Assembly (NCBI GenBank): GCA_016185845.1
Contig: JACPMV010000022.1
Span: forward strand, 1-44,937
Reading direction: 5' to 3'
DNA from: Candidatus Woesearchaeota archaeon
GTDB lineage: Archaea; Nanobdellota; Nanobdellia; Woesearchaeales; GW2011-AR4
Length of the DNA stretch: 44,937 nt
The notes beneath the pieces were generated by a model. It did not search any database, was not told where the DNA came from, and saw nothing but the letters and a program-made list of their open reading frames with translations. The position numbers and the translations under genes are program-made. Shown piece after piece: positions 27,462 through 29,707 of the stretch (the stretch's first letter is position 1; each line of letters starts with the position of its first letter).

Positions 27462-27662
27462 TTATTGATTTTTATTATCAATACCCAACAGGTTATGCAG
27501 CCAGCACCATCCGAAAAAGCTCTCGACTAGTGAAATCCAGCCCACAGCAAATATTGCCCAGTTTACCCATACAATGCTGTATTGCGGCGCCCAAGGGCCG
27601 AGCCACCAAAATGCCAGCGCAAACCTTAAAATTCTGTCCACTCTGCCTAAGTTTTGTTTCAT
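27462..27662 (-). CDS. DUF2892 (YgaP-like TM) membrane protein
   Basis: A 66-residue protein with the DUF2892 pattern: NLGRVDRILRFALAFWW, a helix around VWVNWAIFAVGWISLVESFFGWCWLHNLLGI. Two membrane helices. DUF2892 often accompanies rhodanese or metal and sulfur genes; here it lies nine bases after the zinc-ribbon gene and 43 before copA, in the same direction. Confidence 0.85.
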   Translation of the reverse strand: MKQNLGRVDRILRFALAFWWLGPWAPQYSIVWVNWAIFAVGWISLVESFFGWCWLHNLLGIDNKNQ

Positions 27663-27671
27663 TTTTCCGCC

Positions 27672-27818
27672 TCAGCTAACCAAGTCATGCACATATTTTT
27701 CAACCGATGTCTTTTTCCTGCAGATTGAGCATATATAAATTCCTCTAATTGGCCTCTTTAATGTGGTTCTTCCGCAAATTTGGCATTTTACTGATTCAAA
27801 ATTTTTTTCTTTTTTCAT
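27672..27818 (-). CDS. 48-residue zinc-ribbon protein
   Basis: A very small gene. It encodes a CxxC...CxxC zinc ribbon: Cys12 and Cys15 (KCQICGR) and Cys30 and Cys33 (IYICSICRK), then a helix KKTSVEKYVHDLVS. It sits between the Met/Gly-rich membrane protein and DUF2892 with 15- and 9-base gaps and a GGCGG-like site for the next gene, so it belongs to the copper operon. It may be a metal sensor, chaperone or small RNA/DNA-binding protein. The function is not known. Confidence 0.75.
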   Translation of the reverse strand: MKKEKNFESVKCQICGRTTLKRPIRGIYICSICRKKTSVEKYVHDLVS

Positions 27819-27833
27819 CTTTTCCTTCTTGCT

Positions 27834-28358
27834 CTATCTTGATTTTTTAGATAAATCCCTCCACAATCTGAATATCCACAGATAAACAAGAATCACAAGG
27901 CCGATTGCCAGCAGAACCGCCAAAAAATTAAAAAAAGCGAAATAGCCATATCCATTCTGCCCCATCATTCCGTACCCAAAATTGTATGCCATCATGTTCA
28001 TCATTCCTCCATAGTTTGCTTTTCCGTAATTTCCCATCATGCCGTATCCAACAATGCCATAGTTAACGGCATCGTTCACGTCATTGCAGTACAGCCTTTT
28101 TGCCATAGAAATGTGCGTAAGCCTCAGGCTCTCGCTACCTTCGCCACCCATAATTTTGTCCATTGCTTCATGGGCTTCTCCTGGATGCATCTGCTCCATG
28201 AAGTAGTCCCCCAACGCTTCAAGCTGCGGCTCGCTTAATTTTGAGCATGGAGTCTTGGCGTCAATGATTTGTTTGGCTTCTGCAAAATCTTCGGTGTCGG
28301 CTGCAGCAATGCCAATAACTAAAATAAATATCGCCAGATACAAAATTTTCTTTTTCAT
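27834..28358 (-). CDS. Secreted/anchored Met- and Gly-rich protein of the copper cluster
   Basis: A 174-residue protein: signal peptide (MKKKILYLAIFILVIGIAAA), a conserved-looking helical domain with CSKLSEPQLEALGDYFMEQMHPGEAHEAMD and GGEGSESLRLTHISMAKRLYC (two Cys bracketing it), a Gly/Met/Tyr-rich stretch with repeated YGMMG units, and one C-terminal membrane helix. Similar hypothetical proteins occur in uncultured archaea and candidate-phylum bacteria. Met clusters outside the cell suit Cu(I) or Ag(I) binding, which agrees with copA downstream; this is an inference. The Met at 28358 is preferred over one five codons upstream because it starts the signal peptide. Confidence 0.7.
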   Translation of the reverse strand: MKKKILYLAIFILVIGIAAADTEDFAEAKQIIDAKTPCSKLSEPQLEALGDYFMEQMHPGEAHEAMDKIMGGEGSESLRLTHISMAKRLYCNDVNDAVNYGIVGYGMMGNYGKANYGGMMNMMAYNFGYGMMGQNGYGYFAFFNFLAVLLAIGLVILVYLWIFRLWRDLSKKSR

Positions 28359-28398
28359 TTTAACCGCCAGCAATTTTTATTTGGTAACTATATATCCA

Positions 28399-28485
28399 TT
28401 TTTGATATATTATACTGATAAGTATATAAACTTTTCTATTTATATCAAAATACGATATATCAAAAAAAGAAAGTTATTTATATAA
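28399..28485. promoter_or_regulatory. Divergent promoter with repeated operator boxes of the copper cluster
   Basis: Three related boxes lie between the divergent genes: TTTTTGATATAT (28399-28410), its exact inverted copy ATATATCAAAAA (28455-28466), and a partial copy TATATCAAAA (28441-28450). The plus-strand TATA box TTATTTATATAAG (28474-28486) drives the PadR-type gene. The boxes are the likely binding sites of that regulator. Confidence 0.5.
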
Positions 28486-28506
28486 GAATGCATTTCAATG
28501 CCGAGC

Positions 28507-28914
28507 ATGGCAGATGTTAAAATAAATAATATTGTTAAGTTCTATACTCTATGCCTTCTGGCTAATGAGCCAAAGCACGGGTACGATTTGATTCAAGAAT
28601 TAAAGGAAAAGCTAGAGAGAAAAATAAGCGCAAGCAATGTATACCCATTTTTGGATATTTTAAGAAAAAATAAGCTGATTAAATTTGACAAGATTGGGAA
28701 AAGGGATAAAAAAACATATTATCTGACGCAGGAGGGGGAAAAATTCACAAAGCAGATGTTCAGCAAGTTTGGGGATTTGATTAACCTGGCAATAGAGCCA
28801 AGAATAACAACATGCCCGTGCGGATGCAGGATTTATTCCGGCGGCCACACAAAAAAAGTCAGGGGAAAGGCTATGAAATTCTGTTGCCCTCATTGCGCAA
28901 AGATGTATAAATAA
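28507..28914 (+). CDS. PadR-family regulator with Cys-rich TRASH-like tail (metal sensor)
   Basis: The protein has an N-terminal winged helix of the PadR type (FYTLCLLANEPKHGYDLIQELKEKLERKISASNVYPFLDILRKNKLI), then a C-terminal metal domain with CPCGCRIYSGG...KFCCPHCAKMYK, six Cys and one His, resembling TRASH or YHS metal fingers. It faces the copper cluster across a shared promoter, so it most likely senses copper and controls that cluster and itself. The Met at 28507 lies the expected 26 bases from the TATA box; an in-frame ATG at 28498 is the alternative start. Confidence 0.82.
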   Translation: MADVKINNIVKFYTLCLLANEPKHGYDLIQELKEKLERKISASNVYPFLDILRKNKLIKFDKIGKRDKKTYYLTQEGEKFTKQMFSKFGDLINLAIEPRITTCPCGCRIYSGGHTKKVRGKAMKFCCPHCAKMYK

Positions 28915-28918
28915 AAAG

Positions 28919-29707
28919 CTATATCTTTCTTCTTAATCTGAACAACATATAGGTTCCAAATAAAAAAAGCGGAAAGCTCAGCAGCTGCCCCATAGTGAAA
29001 TAGTTTAGAATAAACCCAATCTGCTCATCCGGCTGCCTGAAAAACTCGGCAATTGTCCTCAGCAGGCCGTACATTGCCACAAAACTCCAGAACATGAAGC
29101 CTTTTGGAAGCTTTTTGCCTTTAATGAACCATAATGCGGCAAATATAAAAAAATTCTTCAGCGACTCGTAAATCTGCGAAGGGTGCCTGCATCCTTCTGG
29201 AACATCCTGTATAAATTGATTTTTAGAATAATCAATGCACCAGGAAAAATCAGTAATCCTTCCATACAATTCTCCGTTAATGAAATTCCCGATCCTGCCA
29301 AGGGCAAGCGCAAGCGCCACAGGCACTACTGTGATGTCTGCAATGTCATAAAATTCAATTTTCTTCTTCCTGCAAAACAGATATGCCGCGAATATTGCCC
29401 CCAAGAAGCCGCCATGGAAGCTTAGCCCTCCGTGCCATAGCTTAATGATCTCAGCAGGGCTGTTTAGATAAAATAGGGGATTATAAAAGATTATATAAGC
29501 CAGCCTGGCACCGAGAACAACACCTATCAGAAGGTATAATATAAAATCTGCTGCGTCGTCTTTGCTTAATTTTATGTTTTTTATTTTTGCAAGACTGGGA
29601 AGCATAAGATATGCTATAATGAACCCCAGGGCATAAAACAAGCCGTAATACCTTACTTCAAAAGGGCCAAATTCAAACAATGCCGGGTTTAAGTTATGAA
29701 AAAACAT
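28919..29707 (-). CDS. lgt: Prolipoprotein diacylglyceryl transferase Lgt
   Basis: Lgt attaches diacylglycerol to the lipobox Cys of lipoproteins. The 262-residue protein has seven predicted helices and the family motifs: RYYGLFYALGF, HGGLSFHGGFLGA (catalytic-region His), GRIGNFINGELYGR (the Lgt signature), RHPSQIYES and YGLLRTIAEFFRQPD. It is clearly bacterial-type. Archaea mostly lack recognisable Lgt, so this is a transferred gene with clients in the same window (livK and the lipoprotein at 11571). No signal peptidase II gene is seen here. Confidence 0.94.
   Translation of the reverse strand: MFFHNLNPALFEFGPFEVRYYGLFYALGFIIAYLMLPSLAKIKNIKLSKDDAADFILYLLIGVVLGARLAYIIFYNPLFYLNSPAEIIKLWHGGLSFHGGFLGAIFAAYLFCRKKKIEFYDIADITVVPVALALALGRIGNFINGELYGRITDFSWCIDYSKNQFIQDVPEGCRHPSQIYESLKNFFIFAALWFIKGKKLPKGFMFWSFVAMYGLLRTIAEFFRQPDEQIGFILNYFTMGQLLSFPLFLFGTYMLFRLRRKI

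Follow-up and report, generated by a model that had tools for sequence, protein, structure and literature searches.

The window, i.e. the whole 44,937-nucleotide stretch analysed, belongs to a woesearchaeal (DPANN) genome of 1.1 Mb and 81% completeness, the near relatives of which are Candidatus Woesearchaeota, uncultivated archaea of very small size. All the genes named in a preliminary description of this DNA were found to be present (Table 1), namely a PadR-type regulator with a metal tail, copA, a 48-residue zinc ribbon, a DUF2892 gene and an exported YGMMG-repeat protein, here termed MET. Four of these form a unit divergent from the regulator in the order MET, zinc ribbon, YgaP-TM/DUF2892 and copA, with internal gaps of 15, 9 and 43 bp, and MET begins 148 bp from the regulator on the opposite strand. 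A bacterial-type prolipoprotein diacylglyceryl transferase gene was also observed in this archaeon at 28919-29707 on the minus strand (Pfam LGT 1.9e-75); many relatives retain it close to the regulator locus, and lipid-anchored exported proteins may follow.

Table 1 Genes and predicted control elements of the locus, with coordinates in the window.
Feature	Position	Strand	Basis or remark
PadR-TRASH regulator (putative), 135 aa	28507..28914	+	Pfam, orthologue alignment, AlphaFold, TATA spacing
MET, Met-rich exported membrane protein, 174 aa	27834..28358	-	Orthologue conservation; without Pfam family
Zinc-ribbon-like protein, 48 aa, CxxC...CxxC	27672..27818	-	Weak L37ae-like similarity
YgaP-like TM protein, 66 aa (Pfam PF11127, the DUF2892 of the preliminary description)	27462..27662	-	Pfam 1.2e-12
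copA, Cu(I)-type P1B-ATPase, 902 aa	24710..27418	-	TIGR01511 1.6e-190
Operator 1 (predicted) TATATCCATTTTTGATATA	28391..28409	.	Over predicted start site of MET-copA transcript
Operator 2 (predicted) TATATCAAAATACGATATA	28441..28459	.	Between two divergent BRE/TATA elements
Predicted TATA (28422-28430) and BRE of MET-copA unit	28422..28436	-	Sequence reading; kept in relatives
Predicted BRE and TATA (28474-28483) of regulator	28469..28483	+	TATA 28 bp before ATG 28507

The regulator matches the Pfam PadR family (PF03551) at 1.7e-13, above the cut-off, and carries a PadR winged helix, which spans approximately residues 1–97 of the 135-residue protein and is followed by a metal tail with the residues C103, C105, C107, C126, C127, H129 and C130. 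Its AlphaFold model adopts a PadR fold (pLDDT 78.6) with the tail as a small beta-hairpin-plus-helix of lower confidence, and PDB and Foldseek searches both gave PadR proteins, with RosR and Rv3488 among the nearest solved structures. TRASH_HVO_1752_C (PF24273), the TRASH tail of HVO_1752, was matched by the window protein at 4.8e-4, which lies under the Pfam curated cut-off, and by 14/15 orthologues at E-values up to 0.1 (best 1.1e-5). The six tail Cys and the one His are invariant among 15 orthologues sharing 64–80% identity with the window protein, and the pattern C-x(1,2)-C-x-C ... FCCxxC is kept in about 45 of the 49 wider relatives. These weak yet consistent matches, along with the conserved Cys, tentatively point to a TRASH-like tail, and the fusion of a PadR winged helix to a six-Cys metal tail read earlier from the DNA is upheld by the PadR and TRASH matches and the invariant cysteines. 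A start at 28498, which would add three residues, was set aside, as orthologue conservation begins at 28507 instead. The ATG at 28507 is most likely the start, because homology begins there and a predicted TATA lies upstream at a spacing that is similar in nearly all orthologues; the same spacing suggests that the transcript is most likely near-leaderless.

Among the partner genes, copA of the window passes the Cu(I) ATPase model and possesses a CPC motif at 528, TM7/TM8 YN and MxxSS motifs seen by eye, and an N-terminus with a YHS domain and two HMA domains, the second of which is degenerate. It is the sole copper-type ATPase found in the 1.1-Mb genome, at 81% completeness. MET has a signal peptide, recognised by eye, and a C-terminal TM helix; between them lie a helical domain, in which C38, H58, H63, H82 and C91 are invariant, and a YGMMG-rich stretch. 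It adjoins the regulator throughout the window's family (f1) and also in further families at order and class level, so the proposal that the Met-rich protein is a partner is sustained by its conservation alongside the regulator in relatives. No Pfam family matched MET, and a known fold was rejected: the AlphaFold model (pLDDT 67.6) is too weak to interpret and found no PDB match. One member of the MET family bears a SHOCT tail. The YgaP-TM/DUF2892 gene is likewise conserved in f1. The 48-residue zinc ribbon, also put forward as a partner, was dropped, being not conserved in relatives: the 36 family genomes gave only weak matches (E>0.003), and that in G013 is a distinct small CxxC protein encoded close to the regulator. 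At loci L041-L055, L087, L092 and L111, thioredoxin-like, CcdA-like, DUF411-like, DUF302-like, OsmC-like and SDR genes, with names assigned by eye, lie beside the regulator, along with a conserved block c3-c4-c12-c13 that is absent from the window.

The inverted TTTTTGATATAT boxes proposed earlier as operators do mark the operator region; the boxes themselves, taken as an inverted pair, were rejected, as each forms a single arm of a complete palindrome, and the two palindromes lie about 50 bp from each other. The predicted operator is the palindrome TATRTC-N7-GAYATA, present in the window as two copies of TATATC-N7-GATATA. With at most one mismatch the pattern occurs three times in the window against 0.17 expected, and the whole 1.1-Mb genome holds two exact matches, both at this locus; the reversed control pattern also gave two. 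Upstream regions of the f1 regulators share copies of this pattern, usually two about 50 bp apart. In the f1 matrix the half-site columns mostly carry 1.4–2.0 bits, with 0.87 at the R/Y-type column of position 16, and the spacer columns mostly carry below 1 bit, far under the half-sites. By hand count, 20/24 exact sites in f1 genomes with the regulator lie in the regulator promoter; the f1 genomes without it (n=20) hold nine exact sites, which are scattered. Some families have a spacer of 8 rather than 7. Genome G019 has two regulator copies (L045:6668-7102 and L045:13768-14178), one having lost nine residues within the tail and the other with a tail ending after the third Cys, and both retain operator-like sites.

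A matrix trained solely on f1 sites was tested on 25 regulators outside f1 and a second family, f20, a match being defined as half-sites with spacer 7 or 8 scoring at least 10 within 90 bp upstream. The palindrome was matched near the regulator's own promoter, consistent with putative autoregulation, for 24/25 of these non-training regulators versus 8/393 other ORFs of the same loci (Fisher 4e-31, a statistic that ignores kinship). Of the eight control matches, three precede copA and three MET; another belongs to a Cys-rich exported gene from the same cluster (L099:1397) and the last to an unrelated ORF, and most of the copA and MET matches share an intergenic region with the divergent regulator, the copA of L108 being an exception. 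At L108 and L110, copA is convergent with the regulator and has an operator of its own in front, and L110 has a further operator before a CopZ-like HMA gene; at these own-promoter sites (L108:5045, L110:10502 and L110:13872) the operator coincides with the TATA or closely follows it, over the start region. At L099:1397-1978, a Cys-rich exported protein with an N8 operator heads a second gene run (c4, c3, SDR), and the regulon may include this second exported-protein operon. As control, 20 copA genes were scanned from -250 to +60, of which 15 came from genomes of the order and family without a detected regulator, four from f20 genomes and one from G103, in which the regulator is on a contig other than that of copA. 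No strong operator was found in this range; the best score was 11.0, at L135 with a GC-run spacer, and the next was 0.3.

The regulator survey covered the order and a draw across its phylum. A full or near-full match (E<1e-30) was detected in 42 of the 353 genomes of the order (hand count), the wider draw adding further families of the same class, and a search of viral contigs for the regulator found none. Within 10 kb of the regulator, copA was present in 15/16 f1 genomes, in some as a contig-edge fragment, and at 19 of the 25 loci outside f1 and f20, nearly always in divergent orientation; these loci share ancestry, so that the counts are not independent and the P values overstate independence. 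Three of the six loci without copA linkage (L103, L114 and L118) are contigs or stretches of at most 8 kb, and another, L117, holds the sole orthologue wholly without a tail, which also has neither operator nor copA neighbour. Co-occurrence across the order (copA in 36/42 genomes with the regulator versus 191/311 without; Fisher 0.002, hand count) is given little weight because the genomes are related and incomplete. The PadR-TRASH copper-export sensor suggested earlier is supported by the linkage at 19 of the 25 loci, together with a conserved operator in front of copA, the Met-rich gene and the regulator itself.

It might be argued that common descent alone explains this neighbourhood and that the regulator has no copper role, given that related genomes can retain gene order and that the f20 orthologues are linked to alaS instead. 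This is highly improbable: other neighbouring genes vary, yet the copA linkage persists through many families of the order and reaches further families of the class, and where copA has a promoter of its own the operator goes with it. In f20, seven orthologues (L089, L093, L095, L097, L102, L113 and L116) adjoin alaS without operator or copA linkage, and most keep the Cys tail; their promoters have a different conserved stretch resembling AGTTAGGTTTTTAAAT. These PadR-TRASH orthologues may have a different target.

Comparison among relatives shows the domain make-up, the invariant Cys and His, the copA linkage, the predicted operator and its targets, and together they probably describe a Cu(I)-relieved, self-regulating PadR-TRASH repressor of copper export. 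The regulator would be a dimeric PadR-family repressor with a C-terminal TRASH-like tail that binds Cu(I). Without excess copper it would occupy the two TATRTC-N7-GAYATA operators: at operator 1 it would cover the start site of the MET-zinc ribbon-YgaP/TM-copA transcript, and at operator 2 it would sit between both BRE/TATA elements. From these two sites it would block the promoters of the export unit and of the regulator alike. Binding of Cu(I) to the tail would then release the regulator, and copA and the Met-rich exported protein would be made. The dimer, the Cu(I) ligand and derepression rather than activation are what we infer from the comparative evidence.

Operator position bears directly on the direction of control. 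The start site of MET is predicted near 28400, within operator 1, because the predicted TATA of MET lies just upstream of it (Table 1). As operator 1 thus lies over this start, and the separate copA and CopZ operators of L108 and L110 over or past the TATA or start, which is a blocking position, repression relieved by metal is favoured; PadR proteins, moreover, are mostly repressors. The regulator could instead be a copper-dependent activator or dual regulator, always bound and switched on by Cu(I) like CopR/CopT, since at both promoters the BRE is immediately preceded by operator 2, just as the CopR motif is placed in P. furiosus (PMC7830388), and CopR activates copA in three archaea (PMC7830388, PMC3600143). 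The position of operator 2, the window protein's TRASH match under the curated cut-off, the kinship of the loci and the f20 orthologues, which mostly keep the tail without operator or copA linkage, count against the repressor reading, and activation is nevertheless considered quite unlikely.

The effector is judged from the regulon. A Cu(I)-type ATPase, an HMA chaperone and a Met-rich exported protein form the predicted target set, which favours Cu(I), and copper as the effector is a deduction from these genes. Copper might instead be incidental, with the sensor responding to some other thiol-reactive signal (Zn, Cd, Ag, Hg or oxidants). The PadR relatives nearest in fold include Halobacterium RosR, which has an oxidative-stress role, and M. 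tuberculosis Rv3488, which has a cadmium role, and related clusters carry thioredoxin, OsmC and CcdA genes. Such a signal appears unlikely in view of the Cu(I)-type copA, the CopZ-like HMA gene and the Met-rich protein among the predicted operator targets; RosR-type PadR proteins, moreover, are not known to carry a Cys tail. In Halobacterium, a PadR protein increased with Cu and Ni, but deleting it had no effect (PMC6978704).

The Cu(I)-relieved repressor can be set beside known systems. CsoR, CopY and CueR also control copper export genes, and the PadR family (LmrR, B. subtilis PadR, Rv3488 and RosR) shares the winged helix and fold; the regulator differs from that family in its six-Cys TRASH-like tail past the C-terminal helix and in its copA linkage. 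PadR operators follow the pattern ATGT/ACAT, with which the half-sites here are compatible. Pfam and NCBIfam scans gave no AsnC/Lrp match up to E=1, and the DNA-binding domains of CsoR, CopY and CueR were unmatched in the Pfam scan at E<=1, in keeping with the view that a PadR-TRASH-like sensor would differ from CsoR, CopY, CueR and CopT/CopR.

The closest parallel is archaeal CopR/CopT, represented by P. furiosus PF0739, T. onnurineus TON_0836, S. solfataricus CopT and Halobacterium VNG1179C. Similar to the regulator, CopR/CopT combine an N-terminal HTH with a C-terminal TRASH tail and are divergent from a copper ATPase, with a shared intergenic control region between the BRE elements (PMC7830388, PMC3600143). 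P. furiosus CopR, an Lrp HTH with TRASH encoded divergently from copA, assembles as an octamer, leaves extended footprints and is an activator of copA (PMC7830388), as are CopR/CopT of Saccharolobus and Halobacterium (PMC7830388, PMC3600143), whereas the T. onnurineus protein is reported as a repressor (PMC7830388). The HTH of CopR/CopT is Lrp/AsnC and that of the regulator is PadR; the extended, weakly conserved footprint of the CopR octamer contrasts with the compact palindrome TATRTC-N7/8-GAYATA predicted here. Lrp-TRASH fusions were reported solely from Crenarchaeota and Euryarchaeota (PMC4236453), while PadR-TRASH was found here in Woesearchaeota and relatives. The regulator would work like CopR/CopT but is not a CopR member, because the Lrp domain is absent. 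No description of a PadR-TRASH copper regulator, nor of such a sensing tail on a PadR protein, was found in the open-access literature to which the search was confined.

Overall, these observations likely describe an archaeal copper repressor class that evolved separately, in which a bacterial-style PadR winged helix, instead of Lrp, bears the archaeal TRASH tail. Across DPANN archaea, this simple palindrome-binding, derepressible switch would control copA, a CopZ-like chaperone and a new Met-rich protein exported for copper handling. No earlier copper-regulation circuit for DPANN archaea came up in the literature searched, which would make this one the first; its operator and targets are defined from sequence, and it would provide a defined predicted operator for lineages with few known regulatory sites. 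The conserved Met-rich exported protein is a candidate copper chaperone or sink. The same metal tail on an unrelated DNA-binding family would indicate that domain swapping, and not one lineage, built archaeal copper sensing.
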